This document shows positions 10,571-63,851 of a stretch of 64,000 bases of DNA, piece after piece. The position numbers were made by a program, and so were the translations under genes. The notes beneath the pieces were generated by a model, which did not search any database, had not been told where the DNA came from, and was given only the letters and a program-made list of their open reading frames with translations. The stretch lies in contig NZ_CP136920.1 of assembly GCF_033100135.1 (NCBI RefSeq), forward strand, positions 4,087,001-4,151,000. Direction: 5' to 3'. The stretch is from Rubellicoccus peritrichatus. Lineage in GTDB: Bacteria; Verrucomicrobiota; Verrucomicrobiia; Opitutales; Cerasicoccaceae. Within the stretch, counting starts at the first letter, position 1. The number at the start of each line of letters is the position of its first letter.

Positions 10571-11752
10571 CTATTCTGAGATTGGAAGCCAGGTTTGTGT
10601 GCTAGACGACCAATAAAAACTGCCTGCCCCCGGGACTTCTACGATGAAAATCCACTCATCGTTTCCGTAATGAAAATGCCATGGAGCAATATCCGGATTT
10701 GTATGGAGCCATTCCTTAAGCGCACCAGAAAAGACTGTCATATTATCACCACCTTCTCCTTCTGCATAGAACCAGCCCAGAAGCCCCGAAAACATCCATG
10801 GGAACTCGGATGTGTAAACCGACCCGAAACCGTCGGTAGTTGCCCAACCTCCTGAAAAATCATCAACCTCACGGAGAAAGCTTATTCCTTCGCCTACATG
10901 AAAAGTGATTTCAATCGCTTCACTTTCGATTGCTGAGCCATCTGCCACCAGGGTGCCGCCTGCCTCAAAAGTCAATTTGTAGATTCCGGGACTCCTAAAG
11001 GCCCAATACATGTGTTGATGGCTCTCGGCAGTCCCGAAGTAGATATTATCGTTGGAAGAATTATCTCCGTCAGTGAAAATCACATTTACTGCTCCGAAGC
11101 CATCAACAGTGTAAACGCTAAACCAACTTGTTTCATCCTCCCCCGATTCTGATACAGTCGCCAAATTGGATAAAGTAGACAACTCGAAGCCCCTCAACCT
11201 GACATAAACCTCATCTTTATCAAAAATGCCAGATTCGAATTCCATGGCGATGCCAGGAGCCGCCGGTCCAGCTGTCGGATCCTGAGGCAGGATGTAGAAA
11301 ACGGAACCCGCTTCGCCGAGGAAACTGAACTCACCTGAATCGGGTAGAACAAAGCGGCTGTCACCATCTGCGATGATGACTACATCGGCTGGTTCAAGAC
11401 CTTCTCCGTGCTCATGCTCTTCGCCTTCTTCATGATCATGCTCCTCACCTTCCTCGTGTTCCTCGTCCTCGTCATGCTCTTCGCCTTCGTCATGCTCTTC
11501 GCCTTCATCGTGTTCCTCATCTTCGTCTTCATGGCCATCTTCGTCTTCGTCGTGGCCATGCTCATCCTCGTGTTCGGCAAAGATGGCAAACTCTAGAGCA
11601 GACTCATCCGCATGATAAACAACGGCGATATCCAGTTCACCTTCATCAAGATAGATGCTCTCCTCATGTTCGTCTTCGGCTACTGCGACGGAGATGGCGA
11701 TTAAGGCTGACACTGAGCCAGCTAACAGTTGAGTATATTTCATTGGTTTCAT
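10571..11752 (-). CDS. Secreted choice-of-anchor-M-like protein with His/Asp/Glu-rich insert and Trp-rich C-terminus
   Basis: The product has 393 residues with signal peptide 1-25. Residues 37-60 and 120-286 resemble the choice-of-anchor-M domain (actinobacterial surface-anchored type: ELDIAVVYH, FLGEAGSVFYILPQ, HQHMYWAFRSPGIYKLTFEA). Between these, residues 60-118 are almost only Glu, Asp, His and Gly with about twelve His, a likely divalent-metal-binding loop. Residues 301-389 form an aromatic module (FPWMF, GWFY, EWLH, EWIF) shared with three other proteins here. It sits 33 bp downstream of a paralogue and opposite a ZnuD-like receptor, so a role in surface zinc capture is inferred. Binding has not been shown for this protein. 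Confidence 0.75.
   Translation of the reverse strand: MKPMKYTQLLAGSVSALIAISVAVAEDEHEESIYLDEGELDIAVVYHADESALEFAIFAEHEDEHGHDEDEDGHEDEDEEHDEGEEHDEGEEHDEDEEHEEGEEHDHEEGEEHEHGEGLEPADVVIIADGDSRFVLPDSGEFSFLGEAGSVFYILPQDPTAGPAAPGIAMEFESGIFDKDEVYVRLRGFELSTLSNLATVSESGEDETSWFSVYTVDGFGAVNVIFTDGDNSSNDNIYFGTAESHQHMYWAFRSPGIYKLTFEAGGTLVADGSAIESEAIEITFHVGEGISFLREVDDFSGGWATTDGFGSVYTSEFPWMFSGLLGWFYAEGEGGDNMTVFSGALKEWLHTNPDIAPWHFHYGNDEWIFIVEVPGAGSFYWSSSTQTWLPISE
11399..11575 (-). repeat. In-gene tandem repeat encoding His/Asp/Glu tract
   Basis: A degenerate 18-bp unit, of the form GAGCATGACGAAGGCGAA, repeats through this stretch and encodes EEHDEG-type hexapeptides. Some units are nearly identical in DNA, so copy number could change by slippage, altering the length of the acidic, His-bearing loop. 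Confidence 0.75.
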
Positions 11753-11785: not shown

Positions 11786-12763
11786 CTAACTTTGCGGTGC
11801 AGTAAACCAGCCAGGCCCGTCTTGATAGAACCAGCGAAAATCGTCCTGAAAGAGTCCATATTCGATCCAGGCTTCACGAGAAAATGAATAAAGGGCCGGA
11901 TAAAGTTCACTGCTGACCCAAAGCCAGCCAATTTCTGAATCCCAAACAAATGCTGAGGTTTCATTAGCATTAGTGAAATACCACCACCCCTGGATCTCGT
12001 TATACACCCATGGATAAGCCCCTGCGACGAAAGAGCCGAACCATTCATTCCAGGTCCAAGTGTCATTGATGGCAAAACCGTCCAGTAATGAACTGGTCTC
12101 ACCAGTGACACGGAAGTAATAAGTGGCTGTCGCACTGGTGAAGCCACCACCAAACTCAGGTGTCAATTCACCAGATACTTCAAAGGTCACTGCGTAATCA
12201 CCGGGTTGAGAAAATGCCCAGTTATAATGAGAGTGGGCACCCGCCGGAATGTCATTCAATGCATCTTCTGGTCCGATTCCGTCACCTGTTGCATAATGAA
12301 CCAATGGAGGAAAGCCTGCCTGCCACATGGTCAGCGTTCCACCGGCATCCACGCCTGTTCCTGTGACTGACACGAGACGCATGTTGATGCGGCCCCGGTT
12401 GCTTAGGCCACCGGTAAAAATACCTCTTTCCAGCAATCGAGTGCCAATGCCCAGATATACCTGATCAGCACTAAATACTTCAGGAAAAACCCAAACCGGA
12501 TCCCCTTCATTCCCAATCAAATTCCATGGTTCTCCTGCCGGGATCACTTGTTTACCTGCATCACCAACTTCAAAGATGATAGAATCCGTCTCCGACCGCT
12601 CGTCCGTATCGAAGTTAAGCACATAGGCACGCCAGCCACCGCCATCCGTTTCGTAATTGATAGACAAGTCAAAGTGGCCAGTCGAATGAACTTCCTGCGC
12701 CGAAGCAGGCGACAGAAGAAGGATTCCCGGAACCAGAAAATTGAAATACCTGAAGATTTGCAT
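11786..12763 (-). CDS. Secreted choice-of-anchor-M-like protein with Trp-rich C-terminus
   Basis: The start at ATG 12763 gives a compact signal peptide (MQIFRYFNFLVPGILLL). ATG 12784 also exists but would leave almost no space for the divergent receptor promoter. The mature protein has one full anchor-M-like domain: TGHFDLSINYE, GDPVWVFPE, LGIGTRLLERGIF, then the hallmark AGAHSHYNWAFSQPGDYAVTF with a His pair. The last 86 residues carry the aromatic module (WFGSF, YPWVY, GWWYF, GWLWV, YPALY, AWIEY, WFY). It is the first gene of an operon with the His-rich paralogue and faces a TonB receptor across two inverted-repeat operators. Zinc-regulated surface capture is inferred from context and from anchor-M relatives in Actinobacteria. 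Confidence 0.8.
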   Translation of the reverse strand: MQIFRYFNFLVPGILLLSPASAQEVHSTGHFDLSINYETDGGGWRAYVLNFDTDERSETDSIIFEVGDAGKQVIPAGEPWNLIGNEGDPVWVFPEVFSADQVYLGIGTRLLERGIFTGGLSNRGRINMRLVSVTGTGVDAGGTLTMWQAGFPPLVHYATGDGIGPEDALNDIPAGAHSHYNWAFSQPGDYAVTFEVSGELTPEFGGGFTSATATYYFRVTGETSSLLDGFAINDTWTWNEWFGSFVAGAYPWVYNEIQGWWYFTNANETSAFVWDSEIGWLWVSSELYPALYSFSREAWIEYGLFQDDFRWFYQDGPGWFTAPQS

Positions 12764-12790
12764 TGGAAAAACCAAAAACGACATCAATAA

Positions 12791-12829
12791 TGCAAATTTT
12801 TTGCAATATGCAAATGCAAAAACTTTGCA
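12791..12829. promoter_or_regulatory. Two Fur/Zur-type inverted-repeat operators
   Basis: Two copies of TGCAAA-N3-TTTGCA lie at 12791-12805 and 12815-12829, 24 bp apart centre to centre, in the divergent gap between the anchor-M operon and the TonB receptor. Spacer bases differ (TTT, AAC), so this is a conserved motif and not a simple repeat. The shape fits a Fur-family dimer site, and a Fur/Zur-type gene lies at 15007. The second copy overlaps the preferred receptor start, so repression could also block initiation. The assignment to that regulator is inference. Confidence 0.65.
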
Positions 12830-14955
12830 CCAAAGATTTTTTCAGAAAAGCTCTGATAATCGCCTCCCTGTTCCCTACTTCGATACAGGCGCAGGTAGTC
12901 ATAAATGATGATAGTGAACTTCAGGAACTTGATGAAGTGGAGATGTTTATGATTCAACCAGCCGAGTTAGGGGATAAAATTGATATACCTCGTCATTTTT
13001 TAAGCGGAGCTGAACTCGAAAGAAAAGTTGAAGCCTCTCTTGGGGAGACCCTGGCTTGGGAACCTGGCGTTAGTAGCAGCTTTTATGGCCCGGCAGCCAG
13101 TCGCCCAATTATCCGCGGCCAAAGTGGTTATCGGGTCGGAATTTACGATGGCGGTGTTGGAACGGGAGATCTATCCAATGCCAGCCCGGATCATGCCGTC
13201 AGCATTGAGCCCATGTTCATTGAAGAAATTGAAGTCATCCGCGGGCCAGCGGCATTGCTCTATGGAAGTAATGCGATCGGAGGTGCCGTTGATGTCGTCA
13301 CCACACACATCCCCAAATCTTCAGCCATTAATCCTGTGTTGGGAGCCGCAGAAGTCAGATACGATACAGTCAATAAAGGTCGAACCGGCATTGTCGCTAC
13401 CACAGTTGGCGACAATGATTTCACAGTCCAGGCCAATGGACTCTGGCGAAAAACGAGTGATTACAAAATCCCTGGCAAGGCGCGGACAGATGATTATGAT
13501 TTTAATAACCGTACCCGGCTACCACCTGCTGTCCCACAACCAAGTCCGAATCCGGAAGGCAGCGTACCTAACACACAAAGTGAAACCCAGATGGGCTCGC
13601 TGGGCGCGTCGTGGTTCTGGGATCAAGGATGGGTTGGTAGCTCATTCACTGCTTTTAACACTGATTATGGCGTCCCAAGCGATGGTCATGCCCATGGCAA
13701 TCCCTTCGGAAATTCCAGCTTCGGCCCTGGTCCAAATGATTTTGTAACCATACAAATGAAACAGCGCAAAGGAGATTTAGAGGCAGAACTATGGCCTGAA
13801 TCTCCATGGCTGGAGGAGCTTTCTCTCCGCACAACCTACTCCGATCTAAAGCAGGATGAATTTGAAGGTGAGTTTTTGGGAAATCATTTCGACGCAGAAA
13901 CATTCGAAAGCCGAATCGAAGCAGTGATGCCTCAGATCGACGGGTGGAGTGCCGCCGCTGGATTGCAATTCAGTTACTTTGATCTCTTCAACCGCAATAT
14001 TAGTTACAACACAGGCAGGGCTGACGAAGACCGGCTTTCGACCCGTTCTATCGGTGGAGGTGTTTTCGCACTGACCGAATATGAGACCGGCCCCTGGCAA
14101 GTGGAGCTAGGGGCGAGAGGTGATTTCCAACACGCCGAGCGAAGCGACCTATCTAACGTTGAGCGTAATGATACCGCCTACTCTGTCAGTACGGGTGTTT
14201 CCTATCGCCTGACTGAGGCGGGCAAGGTCGGCTTGAATCTATCCTACCTTCAGCGTATTCCCACGGCCGACGAACTCTATGTCGAAGCACCTCACGGGGC
14301 AATTGGTATTTTCCAGATTCCGAATCCGAATCTTAACAATGAGGAATCATTCGGCCTTGATCTGTTTCTGGAAAAAGACCTTGGCATCTGGACATTCATC
14401 GCCACTGGGTTCTTTAGACATTTCGACAACTACATTTTTTTGGAAAACCAAGGATTCGAGGTCGATGGCTTGTCAGCTTATCGCTATGTCCAAAGACAAG
14501 CTAACTTCGTTGGTGCAGAACTTGAATCAGCTTGGCGACTTCTCGAAAGACAAAATCAACTTCTAACATTTACCGCATTATGGGATGTAGTTTATGGAAC
14601 GGATACAACGCGACACCAACCCCTGCCCCGCATTCCTCCGATGCGTCTGGGTGGTCGTTTCGATTACACTCTTGGCAATTGGGAATTAGGTATAGGATTA
14701 AGGCATGCCTTTGCCCAAAACCGCGTTCCGCAAGCCGTCTTTGGGACATTGGAGTATCAATCACCAACCGCATCCTACACTTTTCTCGATGCCAACATCG
14801 CCTATACCTTATCCATTGAAAAAGTGATCATGCGAATATTTATAAATGGGACCAATCTGACTAATGCCGAAGGCCGTAACGCCGCCTCTTTCCTTAAAGA
14901 TATTGCTCCTCTTCCCGGTCGTAATATCACAGTTGGTTTAAACGTAGAGTTTTAA
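12814..14955 (+). CDS. TonB-dependent outer-membrane receptor, ZnuD-like
   Basis: The protein has 713 residues from ATG 12814, chosen because it gives a clean signal peptide (KDFFRKALIIASLFP, cleavage after IQA). ATGs at 12808 and 12790 are in frame. A plug domain (about 45-160) holds RPIIRGQSGYRVGIYDGGV and EEIEVIRGPAALLYGSNAIGG. The remainder is a 22-strand-type barrel ending in NITVGLNVEF with terminal Phe. An extracellular segment YGVPSDGHAHGNPFG resembles the His-bearing YGLPGHSH loop of neisserial ZnuD. It is divergent from two anchor-M-like genes and 51 bp ahead of a Fur/Zur regulator. Uptake of zinc is the best reading; another metal is possible. Confidence 0.85.
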   Translation: MQKLCTKDFFRKALIIASLFPTSIQAQVVINDDSELQELDEVEMFMIQPAELGDKIDIPRHFLSGAELERKVEASLGETLAWEPGVSSSFYGPAASRPIIRGQSGYRVGIYDGGVGTGDLSNASPDHAVSIEPMFIEEIEVIRGPAALLYGSNAIGGAVDVVTTHIPKSSAINPVLGAAEVRYDTVNKGRTGIVATTVGDNDFTVQANGLWRKTSDYKIPGKARTDDYDFNNRTRLPPAVPQPSPNPEGSVPNTQSETQMGSLGASWFWDQGWVGSSFTAFNTDYGVPSDGHAHGNPFGNSSFGPGPNDFVTIQMKQRKGDLEAELWPESPWLEELSLRTTYSDLKQDEFEGEFLGNHFDAETFESRIEAVMPQIDGWSAAAGLQFSYFDLFNRNISYNTGRADEDRLSTRSIGGGVFALTEYETGPWQVELGARGDFQHAERSDLSNVERNDTAYSVSTGVSYRLTEAGKVGLNLSYLQRIPTADELYVEAPHGAIGIFQIPNPNLNNEESFGLDLFLEKDLGIWTFIATGFFRHFDNYIFLENQGFEVDGLSAYRYVQRQANFVGAELESAWRLLERQNQLLTFTALWDVVYGTDTTRHQPLPRIPPMRLGGRFDYTLGNWELGIGLRHAFAQNRVPQAVFGTLEYQSPTASYTFLDANIAYTLSIEKVIMRIFINGTNLTNAEGRNAASFLKDIAPLPGRNITVGLNVEF

Positions 14956-39825: not shown

Positions 39826-40935
39826 ATGTATAAAACCATCCAAACAACTCTGGCGGCACTGACCATGTGCAGCCTTGCGAACGCATTTGTCATCGATTTT
39901 GAGAGCGCCGACCTTCCGGCGGATTCTTTCGACACGGGTCCAATCGCCACCGGCGAAACCACTGAGACAGAGAATCCCTTCGGCTCAGACGGACTGCTCA
40001 TCACAACAACTGGCACTTTCGACTTCCTCGGGGGCGTAAGCTTCAGTAACGTTTTTAACCTTTACGAAAATCCTCCGGGAACCGAGTCAACCACTTACTG
40101 GAATGGTTTTGCGCTTTCCAATGTTGTAGACACGACAACTCCAGGCATTCCAAATCAATATGCTGTGATTACCGGAGGAGGTTTCGAACGCGGAAGTGGT
40201 GTCGTGGAAGGCAGCAACTATGGTGTCGTATATAATCCAAGCCAAGGCAGTGCCGTTATAGAAATCCCAGAAGAGCTGGGTGGTCTGCAAGGGATCATGA
40301 TAACAAATACGACTTATGCCTATTTATCCATGGCTAATGGTGATAGCTTCGCGAAGCAGTTTGAACAAGGAGACTGGTTTCAGTTGAACATCATAGCCTT
40401 GGACGACGAAGATAATGTAGCGGGAAGCACTAACATTTTTCTGGCGGATTTTCGCTCCAGCAATCCCGATGACCACTACATCCTGGATGAGTGGAACTAC
40501 GTGAGACTTGATCAATTTGGTGATGCAACAACCAAACTCCAATTCCAACTTTACTCATCAGATACGGGTCAGTTTGGCATGAACACACCAGCCTACTTCG
40601 CCGTAGATGACTTGCTTCTCACCGCGACAGCCTTCGCAGGAGCCGATCCGCTAACCGAAAACTGGAATGCTTCTGGCTGGTTTGGCCAATATTACGATGC
40701 TGAGCTCCCATGGGTTTACCATGAAACTCTCGAATGGATTTACCTGGACCCTACAAGCATCCCGAGTGATGTAGAATTCTGGACTGAGCTCTGGGGTTGG
40801 GTATCTACCAGCGCTGAAGCTTATCCTTGGGTGTATCAATTCGACACAGGCGAATGGCTTTACTATTTTGAAGGTAGTTCAGAGCCATGGGTATACTACG
40901 ACTCAGGCACCAACGAGGTTGTCGAAGTTGATTAG
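39826..40935 (+). CDS. Secreted DUF4465-like protein with Trp-rich C-terminus
   Basis: The product has 369 residues with signal peptide 1-20. Residues 23-268 match the DUF4465 pattern: WNGFALSNVVDTTTPGIPNQY, ITGGG, TNTTYAYLSMANGDSFAKQF, GDWFQLNI, LADFRS and FGMNTPAYFAVDDL. DUF4465 proteins are found at the surface beside TonB receptors in Bacteroidota. I recall that some of that group bind cobalamin, but I cannot verify it here. Residues 280-363 are the aromatic module shared with three other proteins (WFGQY, LPWVY, EWIYL, WGWVS, YPWVY, EWLYY, PWVYY). It lies 17 bp ahead of the TonB receptor, so joint function in ligand capture is likely. Confidence 0.82.
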   Translation: MYKTIQTTLAALTMCSLANAFVIDFESADLPADSFDTGPIATGETTETENPFGSDGLLITTTGTFDFLGGVSFSNVFNLYENPPGTESTTYWNGFALSNVVDTTTPGIPNQYAVITGGGFERGSGVVEGSNYGVVYNPSQGSAVIEIPEELGGLQGIMITNTTYAYLSMANGDSFAKQFEQGDWFQLNIIALDDEDNVAGSTNIFLADFRSSNPDDHYILDEWNYVRLDQFGDATTKLQFQLYSSDTGQFGMNTPAYFAVDDLLLTATAFAGADPLTENWNASGWFGQYYDAELPWVYHETLEWIYLDPTSIPSDVEFWTELWGWVSTSAEAYPWVYQFDTGEWLYYFEGSSEPWVYYDSGTNEVVEVD

Positions 40936-40952
40936 TTTGAGGCACATCATCA

Positions 40953-42920
40953 TTGTATAGAAATTTCCGTCTCAACGTCATCGTGGCGACACTCCTCGGG
41001 GTGTCGCCACTTTGCGCACAAAAGATCGACGATATCGTCGAACTTGAACCTTTTGTTGTCACTGCCAGTCGTTTCGATGAGCTAGCTGAGAACATTCCAG
41101 TCAACCTCGATCTAATCACTGCCGAGACAATCGAGAAATCCGGTGCGACTGACCTCGTCGAAGTTCTTGAAAAAGAAGCCGGAGTCTTCTTCCGTTCCAC
41201 TTCTGGAAATGCTTCCGATGCGGAAATCGACCTGCGCGGTTTCGGAGAAAACAGCGGTGTAAGAACGCTCGTCCTCGTCGATGGTGTCAAACTGAATCGC
41301 CCCGACATCGGTGCACTCAACTGGCTGCAGATTCCGCTTTCAGAGATCGAGTCCGTCGAAGTCCTGCGCGGTACCCAAACAGCACTCTACGGCAATAATG
41401 CCACTGGCGGCGTAGTGAAAATCACAACGAAACGCGGGCTGAAGAATCCAGGAGGCACTCTAACCGGAATCGTCGGCAATTACGGACTCGCTAACATCCG
41501 AGGTGGCTATTCCGGAAATAATGGAGCCTTTACCGCCTCAGTCAACGCAGAGTATAATCAACTCAACGGCTACCGGGACAACTCACGCTATGTTGCTAAA
41601 TCAGGCAGCATGAATCTGGGATACAACATCAGCGAGAAGCTTTCGATTAGAGGCTCATTTGCCTACATCGATACTGCTAGTCTGCTTCCAGGTGGACTCA
41701 CTCTGGCTCAAGCCCAGAACACCCCACGACAGTCCTTTGCCTCACCGGAAACCTCGTTTTCCAATGAACAAATCTGGCGACTCGATGGCGTGATCGACTA
41801 CGCTCTGGACGATCAAGATCGCCTTGAACTCACCGCAGGCTACAATCGACGCGACCTTTCCTGGAACCTTGAAGGCCCCGGAGCCGACAACCTGATTCAA
41901 ACGGTAACCGTATCACCGAAACAAATTATCGAACGTAACCAATGGAAACTCGTCTACGGTCTTGATTACATTCATGACAGTCTCGACTTTGACATTTTCC
42001 AAAACAATCGGACGATCAACTCAGGCAACGGCAGCCTGACAAGAGATTCCATCGGCGGCTACGGACAGGTCCAATATGAAATCGATAAACAATGGATCGC
42101 CTCGGCTGGCCTGCGGCTTGAGGGAACTTTTCTCAATGGGCAAAACACGGACCTTCAACCACCGATTGATAACTTCGATGCGAACAAGAATGACTTTGGG
42201 ACAGCGTTCGATCTAGGTCTGGTCTATAAAGTCTCGGATGAGCTTCGCATTTGGAGTCGCTTCGATCGGCTGTACCGCTACCCTGCTACAGATGAGATCG
42301 CTGCCTACCAGGGCTTTCCACTAAGCCAGCCCTTCAACTTCGATCTCGATCCGGAGACGGGTTACAACGTTGAAGTCGGTCTCGACTGGGAGCGAAGTGG
42401 TTTCTTTGGATCGGCCAATCTCTTTGCCATGTGGCTCGATGGTGAGATCGGTTTTGATTTTGTACAAAACCTTAACCTCAATATCGGCGATACGCGCCGA
42501 CTTGGCGTCGATCTCTCATTTGGTTACCGCAGCCAACTCTGGAGCCTGCGAGCGGATTACTCCTTTATCGATGCAAACTACACAGGGGGCTTTTTAAGTG
42601 GCCAGCCCATATGGCTCGTGCCCCGGCAGCGTTTTTCTCTCCGCGGAGAAATCAATCCAACAAAAGAACTCTCCTTTGTAGCCCGATACAGTTATACCGC
42701 CGAACAGCTTCAGGGTAATGACATCACCAATACTCTGCCCCGTATTCCCTCATTCCAACTGGTCGACCTGCTGGCGCGCTATGAGATACGCGACTGGCTG
42801 GACGTTTTTGTCGGTGTCGATAATGTCTTCGATGAGAATTACTTCTCAGTCGCCTTCGTAGGGACCTATTACCCCGCCAGTGGACGCACTTACAAGGGTG
42901 GGCTTACAGCGCGATTTTAA
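40953..42920 (+). CDS. TonB-dependent outer-membrane receptor, BtuB-like
   Basis: The protein has 655 residues from TTG 40953, which yields a signal peptide (LNVIVATLLGVSPLCA). A TonB-box-like stretch (VELEPFVVTASR) starts the plug, which contains EIDLRGFGENSGVRTLVLVDG and ESVEVLRGTQTALYGNNATGG. The barrel ends GGLTARF with terminal Phe. Size and plug style resemble vitamin or metal-complex receptors of the BtuB type. It is in an operon with the DUF4465-like protein and probably controlled by the divergent Fur regulator. No cobalamin riboswitch was found upstream. Confidence 0.88.
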   Translation: MYRNFRLNVIVATLLGVSPLCAQKIDDIVELEPFVVTASRFDELAENIPVNLDLITAETIEKSGATDLVEVLEKEAGVFFRSTSGNASDAEIDLRGFGENSGVRTLVLVDGVKLNRPDIGALNWLQIPLSEIESVEVLRGTQTALYGNNATGGVVKITTKRGLKNPGGTLTGIVGNYGLANIRGGYSGNNGAFTASVNAEYNQLNGYRDNSRYVAKSGSMNLGYNISEKLSIRGSFAYIDTASLLPGGLTLAQAQNTPRQSFASPETSFSNEQIWRLDGVIDYALDDQDRLELTAGYNRRDLSWNLEGPGADNLIQTVTVSPKQIIERNQWKLVYGLDYIHDSLDFDIFQNNRTINSGNGSLTRDSIGGYGQVQYEIDKQWIASAGLRLEGTFLNGQNTDLQPPIDNFDANKNDFGTAFDLGLVYKVSDELRIWSRFDRLYRYPATDEIAAYQGFPLSQPFNFDLDPETGYNVEVGLDWERSGFFGSANLFAMWLDGEIGFDFVQNLNLNIGDTRRLGVDLSFGYRSQLWSLRADYSFIDANYTGGFLSGQPIWLVPRQRFSLRGEINPTKELSFVARYSYTAEQLQGNDITNTLPRIPSFQLVDLLARYEIRDWLDVFVGVDNVFDENYFSVAFVGTYYPASGRTYKGGLTARF

Positions 42921-61829: not shown

Positions 61830-63851
61830 ATGAACAAGTTAATCCTCAAAGCAAAAAAATTCAGTTTAATCCCCATCCTACTCGTTCACGCATTCGTATA
61901 TTGTATAACAATCCAAACACTTCAGGCTGACGATTCGATAACGGTATTTATTGATTCTTTTGAAGATTTAGAGCAGCCGGTAGAATTTCGCTCAGCAAAC
62001 GGTCTACTTGAAGTTACTCATATTTTAGAAGAAGCTAGTAATTTCCTGGGAGACGGAACTTCCGATGATGAGAGCGAATATATGTTTATTTTCGGACCGA
62101 CCTATAATGGCTCTATCCCTGGCCCAACCCTACGAGTGAAACCGGGAGATAACCTTGTCGTTCATACGGTTAACAATCTCCCACCCAATGATGATAACTT
62201 TCTTGAGCTACTTGGTATCGATTTAGAATTCTGTACCCCTTTGGAGTTACAGAAAATTGCAGATGGAGACATTGCCACCCTCGCAGCCAAAACCACAACA
62301 GACTTTGACTTCAACTTTCCCCACGAACTTAACAGCTACAATTTACACACACATGGCCTGCATGTTTCTCCCGCCCATAAAGCAGATGAAATTCTTAGGA
62401 TCATCAAACCAGGAAGCACTTATACCAACATTATCAGTATTCCGGAAGATCATGTGCCCGGAGTATTCTTCTATCATCCTCACAACCATGGCTCAATCTG
62501 GGCTCAGTATCGCAGCGGAATGGCTGGCACAATTATTGTTGAAGGAGATATAGATGAAGTCCCTGAAATCGCTGCTGCCAAAGATATTGTCCTGGTCCTC
62601 CAGCAATTAGAAACGGACAGTGACTTTGGAACTGGCGAACCAGATAGCGAAACCTCTGATTTTACGGAAGTTTTCGAGACCGTAAAGGTTGCAAAAACAG
62701 TGAATGGTCAATTGAATCCAACTATTAGGATTCAACCAGGTGAAGTCCAGCGATGGCGAATAATTCATGCAGGACGTGATGATAATTTTCCATTTGAATG
62801 TGATGGTGTCGATTTCTACGTCATAGGCTATGACGGTATTCCAATCGAAGAACCAGTCCTGATGGAAAAGATATTTCTTGCCCCTGGAAACAGGGTCGAA
62901 GTCCTGGCCAAAGGCAAAGATGCAGGCACCTATTCATTAACCAAGGTAGCTGATGGCAATGTGGATGAACTAACCATCGCAACAGTCGTCGTCGAAGGCG
63001 CAACAATAGATATGGGTATCCCGGAAACACTGCCATATCAATATGATTTATTAGCACCGATTGCTGCCGAGGAAGTCACCGGGACCCGCTCGTTAGAATA
63101 CGAAATCGTTCTACAACCAGATGCACTTGATGATCATGTAATCAACGGCAATAAGTTTGATCCAACCCGAGTAGACCAAACGATCTATTTGGACGATGTT
63201 GACGAATGGACAATCACGGGTGATGGCCATCCGCACCATATTCATTCGAACGACTTCTATGTTGTAGAACTTGAAGGAACCTACTTGTCAGATAGTAACG
63301 GAGAAAACGGTATTGATGCGACAGAACTCTACCCCACTATGCCACTCTGGATGGATACCATTATGGTGCCAAGTGATGGAAAAGTCGTGCTTCGTTCAAG
63401 ATACGAACGCTATACTGGAGCATTGGTTCTACACTGTCACATTATTCATCACGAGGAACTAGGCATGATGCAGCTCGTTGAAATTCTGCCGCCAATGGGT
63501 GAATACTACCTGGGTGTTGAACGAGCAGACACAAGTGATGACGATTATATATCCCAATGGCTGGGAGCATTCAATGTCAGCGATCTTCCATGGCTATGGC
63601 ATTACCAATTCGGCTGGCTCTATCCAGCAGGTACCGGAGCCGTGGATGACGACTTCTGGCTGTATGCTGAATCCTTGGATTTAGCCTGGCTATGGACAAA
63701 TTCACTCTCATTCCCAGCACTCTGGAGCAATGACAGATCCAGCTGGCTATTCTACCTAGATGGAGATGGCACCAATTTCTTTTACGACCTAAGTCAGAAT
63801 GAATGGTTCGAAGCGTCTGTCAGCAACTCGAATGCTGTAGCGTCACTTTAG
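61830..63851 (+). CDS. Secreted multicopper oxidase with Trp-rich C-terminus
   Basis: The product has 673 residues with a signal peptide (about 1-33). Three cupredoxin domains are present. The trinuclear and type-1 copper ligands appear in order: NLHTHGLHVS (HTHG 173-176), FFYHPHNHGSIWAQ (HPHNH 216-220), GHPHHIHSNDF (467-472) and LHCHIIHHEELGM (535-546, with the axial Met). It probably oxidises phenols or metal ions with oxygen in the periplasm or at the surface. Residues 573-662 are the aromatic module shared with three other proteins (WLGAF, LPWLW, GWLYP, AWLWT, FPALW, SWLFY, FFYD). The 261-bp AT-rich upstream region probably carries the promoter. It has no partner gene within the window. 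Confidence 0.93.
   Translation: MNKLILKAKKFSLIPILLVHAFVYCITIQTLQADDSITVFIDSFEDLEQPVEFRSANGLLEVTHILEEASNFLGDGTSDDESEYMFIFGPTYNGSIPGPTLRVKPGDNLVVHTVNNLPPNDDNFLELLGIDLEFCTPLELQKIADGDIATLAAKTTTDFDFNFPHELNSYNLHTHGLHVSPAHKADEILRIIKPGSTYTNIISIPEDHVPGVFFYHPHNHGSIWAQYRSGMAGTIIVEGDIDEVPEIAAAKDIVLVLQQLETDSDFGTGEPDSETSDFTEVFETVKVAKTVNGQLNPTIRIQPGEVQRWRIIHAGRDDNFPFECDGVDFYVIGYDGIPIEEPVLMEKIFLAPGNRVEVLAKGKDAGTYSLTKVADGNVDELTIATVVVEGATIDMGIPETLPYQYDLLAPIAAEEVTGTRSLEYEIVLQPDALDDHVINGNKFDPTRVDQTIYLDDVDEWTITGDGHPHHIHSNDFYVVELEGTYLSDSNGENGIDATELYPTMPLWMDTIMVPSDGKVVLRSRYERYTGALVLHCHIIHHEELGMMQLVEILPPMGEYYLGVERADTSDDDYISQWLGAFNVSDLPWLWHYQFGWLYPAGTGAVDDDFWLYAESLDLAWLWTNSLSFPALWSNDRSSWLFYLDGDGTNFFYDLSQNEWFEASVSNSNAVASL

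Follow-up and report, generated by a model that had tools for sequence, protein, structure and literature searches.

An aromatic-rich domain shared by unlike exported proteins of Rubellicoccus peritrichatus is a candidate module for retention at the cell surface

Four exported proteins encoded in the window, the 64,000-nucleotide stretch of the Rubellicoccus peritrichatus genome analysed here, end in one homologous domain of ~90 residues, which we call the W domain and which occurs in about 60 copies in the genome. We favour, with moderate confidence, the reading that the W domain is a non-covalent retention module, which keeps its cargo at the cell surface or in the matrix, acts from either end of the chain and can replace the PEP-CTERM sorting tag. 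As a means of holding exported proteins at these sites it is probably new in kind; no published description of it was found in the open-licence literature.

The W domain in the window and in the genome

A profile built from the four tails matched exactly four places in the window, the tails themselves (positions are contig coordinates minus 4087000). Two lie on the minus strand, at the C-termini of choice_anch_M proteins: 10577–10864 (E 6.4e-39) in a protein rich in His, Asp and Glu (ORF 10571–11752; NF038134, E 7.7e-18), and 11795–12076 (E 8.5e-36) in a second protein of this kind (ORF 11786–12763; NF038134, E 6.3e-23). The plus strand carries the other two, at 40642–40932 (E 2.3e-39), ending a DUF4465 protein predicted to bind B12 (ORF 39826–40935; PF14717, E 2.2e-51), and at 63525–63818 (E 3.9e-33), ending a multicopper oxidase (ORF 61830–63851; PF07731/PF07732/PF00394). 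All four reading frames lie where the original prediction had placed them, and eight columns of the MAFFT alignment of their tails are invariant. Profiles made from three tails recovered the omitted one at 38.7–57.5 bits (E 4.4e-9 to 4.6e-15, computed for 60,000 sequences). Against the tail profile, no reversed tail exceeded 4.9 bits and 1000 shuffles of each tail gave no score above 12.9 bits, which rules out chance or aromatic composition alone as the cause of the similarity. The bodies in front of the tails are unrelated in kind, as predicted, but of three kinds rather than four (choice_anch_M twice, DUF4465 and multicopper oxidase), since both minus-strand ORFs match NF038134. The signal peptides expected on all four proteins are visible by eye, while a strict script accepts three and misses the DUF4465 protein.

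Searching the whole genome, a single 5.8 Mb contig that contains the window, returned 61 places at E ≤ 10, of which two contain in-frame stops. When the profile was iterated on the 61 proteins, 60 matched at E < 1e-3 (within that small set) and L060 at E 0.07. The strict signal-peptide pattern is enriched among these W proteins, being found in 43 of the 61 versus 14 of 50 ORFs taken without overlap from the window (the 14 themselves include three W proteins), and by eye most of those failing it also start export-like. We adopted this pattern because a looser test, passed by 56/61 W proteins and also by 28/49 window ORFs, was too permissive. None of the 61 C-terminal ends shows the PEP motif, helix and basic cluster of a PEP-CTERM-like tail; 60 have no clear C-terminal transmembrane segment, and the remaining one has a borderline hydrophobic stretch. 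The W domain is, as had been proposed, a separate module on unlike exported proteins, with neither membrane span nor basic tail. A pattern search at the chosen starts found a lipobox cysteine at the signal-peptide cleavage site in 0/61, which sets W proteins apart from lipoproteins.

A Pfam scan covering 44 of the 61 W proteins found no family in 19 of them. The recognised bodies include DUF4465, multicopper oxidase, two beta-lactamase-family proteins, a metallophosphoesterase with Calx-beta, a PQQ-type propeller, cyclophilin, a subtilase with Ig domains, nucleoside hydrolase, MauG peroxidase, two trypsins, DUF4331, DUF1800, DM13, histidine phosphatase, CAP and leucine-rich repeats. No catalytic family of glycoside hydrolases, lyases or sulfatases appeared among these 44 bodies; one propeller body also matches PF25292, a model named for a carrageenase propeller.

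Among the 59 copies above 20 bits, 43 are C-terminal (within 15 residues of the model end), 14 are N-terminal behind a signal peptide (starting at most 75 residues from the frame start) and two are internal. The 57 terminal copies compare with 9.2 expected under uniform placement (at a somewhat different cut), so that a random scatter of internal copies, which would have spoken against a sorting or anchoring unit, is not what the genome contains. The expectation that the domain is always C-terminal did not survive, given the 14 N-terminal copies and at least five Verrucomicrobiota copies that are truly internal, with 129–309 residues following the W domain. In 44 named Verrucomicrobiota copies, many of them in frames cut at the 5′ end, 32 are C-terminal, seven lie 21–72 residues further in, five are internal and none is N-terminal; the N-terminal class is found almost only in the R. 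peritrichatus genome. Copies from deltaproteobacterial metagenome-assembled genomes (MAGs) read exactly C-terminal in 21 of 21 cases. The main exception to terminal placement is formed by L112, L117, L128 and L137 from Opitutia and Verrucomicrobiota MAGs, proteins of ~490–520 residues in which a conserved N-terminal stretch of ~100 residues precedes an internal W domain (L117 is truncated where its stretch ends).

Two further arrangements were seen. Locus L071 (1579–6433) holds three tandem genes for proteins of ~530 residues in which the signal peptide leads straight into the W domain and a CxxCH motif lies near the C-terminus; the one scanned had no Pfam match. Locus L061 (1233–16220) is a frame of ~5000 codons with a signal-peptide-like start, of which the last ~90 residues are the W domain.

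A TonB-dependent receptor adjoins two of the three W sites in the window; both receptors are context and lie outside the W module. Directly downstream of the W-tailed DUF4465 gene is a receptor of the B12/siderophore type (40953–42920, plus strand; TIGR01783, E 6.9e-45, and TIGR01779 TonB-B12, E 8.4e-44, neither reaching its curated cut-off). PMC13398666 describes DUF4465 proteins as B12 binders that are often associated with TonB systems. The two genes (39826–42920) are probably a cobamide uptake pair. No cobalamin riboswitch was found beside the DUF4465 gene at the gathering threshold. The DUF4465 protein carries an NTPAYF loop motif, and its closest solved relative is 9HMU, Coraliomargarita akajimensis D5EK51. 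Divergent from the two W-tailed choice_anch_M genes is a ZnuD-like TonB-dependent receptor (12763–14955, plus strand; NF038289, E 6.2e-84, 282.9 bits where the cut-off is 950). The His/Asp/Glu-rich part of the first choice_anch_M protein is a run of ~60 residues, which suggests metal (zinc) binding at the surface. Attachment fits this context, since the cell surface is where a binder passing nutrients to an outer-membrane receptor would serve best.

Predicted fold and hairpin units

AlphaFold modelled the tail of the DUF4465 protein alone with a pLDDT of 92.5 and a pTM of 0.80 (all-beta, 10 strands) and a deltaproteobacterial copy with 95.0 and 0.82 (all-beta, 10–11 strands over two models). 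The W domain is thus predicted to be a self-standing all-beta unit, with five hairpins by sequence order. The possibility that the tail belongs to the upstream domain, named at the outset as a refuter, is ruled out by the confident model of the tail alone together with the end of the solved DUF4465 chain, as PDB 9HMU aligns to residues 21–262 of the DUF4465 protein, ahead of the tail. Each hairpin follows the unit W-[ILV]-[YF]-turn-[GE]-W-[ILV]-[YF]. Comparison of unit profiles gave 96% for U2-U4, 95% for U2-U3, 86% for U4-U5, 62% for U3-U4 and ~68% for both U1-U3 and U1-U2, with the remaining four pairs below 11%; judged from these sequences, the domain looks like a short repeat of hairpin units that are related in part. 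Over the 55 domains scoring above 40 bits, aromatic residues make up 26.7% of the W domain versus 10.1% of the bodies. The mean net charge of the domain is about −8. Half-size versions with one or two PW-[VI]-[YW] hairpins directly behind the signal peptide occur in L053, L057 and L059, the last on a beta-lactamase-family protein.

Family searches used set A2, in which 31 of the 54 domains that score above 45 bits in the R. peritrichatus genome were kept (divergent, truncated, insert-bearing and near-duplicate copies were left out), and set A3, with 16 of the 21 deltaproteobacterial domains and 16 from the R. peritrichatus genome. For 31 rows, no Pfam model scored above its cut-off (best E 0.012, OCRE, two rows, below its cut-off) and neither did any NCBIfam family; at E ≤ 1, there was no match to the choline-binding family in Pfam, to Por_Secre_tail and similar type IX C-terminal domain (CTD) models in Pfam or NCBIfam (0/31), or to GlyGly-CTERM or LPXTG models in NCBIfam. 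PHROGs gave no family for 32 rows. The best PDB sequence match to the W domain had E 0.41, Foldseek with the two models found nothing in the PDB at E ≤ 0.001, its top hits having E 1.2 and 1.4, and a viral structure library gave E 0.39 at best. The best VIA matches were apolipoprotein M (Z 2.7, rmsd 3.0, 69 aligned) and LptDE (Z 3.9, rmsd 3.3, 77 aligned). These match lists show neither a new nor a known fold. A phage or plasmid module was considered and rejected, tblastn with one domain each having found no match in phage or plasmid records; one exact pattern did not find the W domain in viral contigs either.

Exchange with PEP-CTERM and distribution

The 54 genomes of the order yielded 12 DUF4465 proteins, each of which was read to its end: ten have PEP-CTERM-like tails and two, from R. 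peritrichatus and from genome G002 of the same family, have the W domain. The W-tailed pair forms one clade (support 0.986) nested among the PEP-CTERM members, showing that in this family the W domain replaces PEP-CTERM in the same position, and bearing out the likeness to sorting modules that had been suggested. In the choice_anch_M family, 37 places were found and 30 had loci that were read, giving 29 proteins (two places lie in one protein), of which 14 end in PEP-CTERM, three in the W domain (two in R. peritrichatus, one in G029) and 12 otherwise; G001b and G008b, labelled W in the tree set, failed the reading of tails and count as other, and G004b, labelled other, ends in VPEPQ and counts as PEP-CTERM. 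The choice_anch_M tree gives no clear support for an exchange of tails: P0002 groups with the W protein of G029 and with other-tailed proteins (supports 0.18–0.66), and P0001, on a long branch, has a support of 0.21 for its placement. No DUF4465 or choice_anch_M protein that was read bears both the W domain and PEP-CTERM. Longer choice_anch_M paralogues among the relatives (L219, L222, L224, L227, L228 and L229) share another recurrent C-terminal stretch, neither PEP-CTERM nor W domain, which has a W ahead of a pattern such as R-F-x-R-V.

The W domain is an addition to the PEP-CTERM system, not its replacement genome-wide, since the same genome retains exosortase (five matches) and PEP-CTERM matches (116 at E ≤ 10, a lax threshold at which 12 of 14 control genomes also match, two of them above the cut-off). 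The swapping of tails on homologous cargo is the behaviour of sorting tags, and PMC3237569 gives a precedent in one family whose members bear GlyGly-CTERM, LPXTG or PEP-CTERM.

The W domain was found in 19 of 54 relatives, the R. peritrichatus genome included, with 1 to 62 matches each; 6 of 9 relatives in the same family have none at E ≤ 0.001. In an evenly drawn sample of the phylum, 9 of 387 genomes contain it at E ≤ 1e-6 (best 13 candidates per genome scored). A degenerate DNA pattern run over named genomes found 62 stretches, 43 with verrucomicrobial labels (Opitutales, Opitutae, Opitutia, Puniceicoccales, Verrucomicrobia and similar) and 19 from six MAGs named Deltaproteobacteria or Syntrophobacteraceae, with 3–16 matches each. 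In the phylum sample of one such MAG, only that MAG itself was positive (1/297, best 17 candidates per genome). Misbinning of the six appears unlikely from the sequences, because the MAGs bear different names and their copies resemble each other (47–67% identical to those of the first MAG) more than the R. peritrichatus copies (22–41%). A family was found in five of ten deltaproteobacterial carrier proteins: phosphoesterase, papain-type protease, pro-kumamolisin, NHL repeats and DUF3466.

Exosortase (PF09721) is present in all 27 W-bearing genomes tested, 19 relatives and eight further ones. Among the relatives it occurs in 19/19 carriers versus 20/35 non-carriers (p 4e-4), and in genomes of at least 2.4 Mb in 19/19 versus 15/18 (p 0.105), both uncorrected for kinship, so that the association is weak once genome size is considered. 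Deltaproteobacterial carriers have it in 6/6 cases versus 116/296 others of the phylum sample (p 0.004, kinship likewise uncorrected).

Readings of the W domain and their consequences

The system that the W domain most resembles in its use is PEP-CTERM/exosortase (TIGR02595, PF09721): both have many copies per genome on unlike exported proteins, a sporadic distribution, the same position in DUF4465 homologues and a place among the tails of choice_anch_M proteins, and exosortase accompanies the W domain in every carrier genome tested. Unlike PEP-CTERM, the W domain has no PEP motif, membrane helix or basic tail, is folded over ~90 residues and also occurs near the N-terminus. It shares with GlyGly-CTERM/rhombosortase the occurrence of homologous proteins with different functional tails, but it lacks the transmembrane stretch of that short C-terminal processing signal, which PMC3237569 describes. 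The analogy to processed C-terminal signals, PEP-CTERM and type IX alike, is weak because of the N-terminal and internal copies, and a binding module is the better fit, in keeping with the class of role first proposed, a surface-attachment or possibly glycan-binding unit. Choline-binding repeats, GW modules and S-layer homology domains are aromatic or repeat modules that attach proteins to surfaces non-covalently from either chain end. The W domain would be their work-alike, and differs from them in having no Pfam match at E ≤ 0.01 (31 rows), in its five-hairpin layout and in its carriers, which by phylum we take to be outer-membrane bacteria.

The retention reading has to be weighed against three others. 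The W domain may instead be a secretion signal for a dedicated outer-membrane export machine, in which case its role would be exit and not retention. The model here is the type IX CTD (Por_Secre_tail), a folded beta domain that is comparable in size and C-terminal on exported proteins of many kinds, and the many-to-one pattern on unlike exported proteins agrees with it, as do the uniformly C-terminal deltaproteobacterial copies and the 32 of 44 named Verrucomicrobiota copies. The W domain, however, matches no type IX CTD model in Pfam or NCBIfam, and 14 of 59 genome copies sit N-terminally behind the signal peptide and some are internal, and we regard an export signal as unlikely. A search for SprA_N matched 0/54 genomes, the controls also being without a match.

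It is less probable still that the W domain is a lectin or carbohydrate-binding module aiming enzymes at external polysaccharide rather than at the surface of the producer. Many sugar-binding surfaces are aromatic-rich and negatively charged, as the W domain is, but none of the 44 bodies scanned belongs to a catalytic family of glycoside hydrolases, lyases or sulfatases, and in DUF4465 proteins the domain alternates with a sorting tag. That same substitution for PEP-CTERM counts against a folding, oligomerisation or protease-protection cap with no common location, which its compact predicted form and its usual place at chain ends would otherwise suit; moreover, a solved DUF4465 chain of 250 residues lacks the tail, and PMC13398666 reports that the family binds B12 as expressed. 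A cap is the least probable of the three, and we give it little credence.

In the preferred reading, retention at the surface or in the matrix, cargo carrying the W domain would be exported by Sec and then pass outside, where the folded domain would bind one component, the same for all cargo, of the outer surface or the extracellular matrix. The bound domain would keep at the cell nutrient binders beside TonB receptors, redox enzymes and proteases, doing the job of PEP-CTERM without a membrane span. We infer both the surface location and the binding of a matrix component from the pattern of cargo, placement and exchange. Exosortase is tied to exopolysaccharide genes in PMC1569441, which makes a matrix polymer a reasonable candidate ligand, and our guess is an exopolysaccharide linked to exosortase systems. 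Searches for single families found no receptor or partner gene for the W domain. Our confidence is slightly lowered by the choice_anch_M tree, with its lack of a clear exchange, and by the near-limitation of the N-terminal class to the R. peritrichatus genome. The fullest version of the proposal, which we hold only tentatively, is a hitherto undescribed localisation system of outer-membrane bacteria, built on a folded, aromatic domain of five hairpins. Taking the place of PEP-CTERM on the same cargo, the domain would work from either chain end, free of helix and processing, would bind a dedicated surface polymer and would have spread between Verrucomicrobiota and deltaproteobacterial lineages alongside exosortase-type matrix systems.

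The W domain, which has no entry in the Pfam and NCBIfam versions searched, marks ~60 proteins of one genome, many of them without a known family, as sharing one destination, and the destination of exported proteins in Opitutales thereby becomes directly testable. Its exchange with PEP-CTERM on the same cargo family is a natural control for the function of exosortase tags, and the domain itself would supply a small folded tag without a membrane segment.
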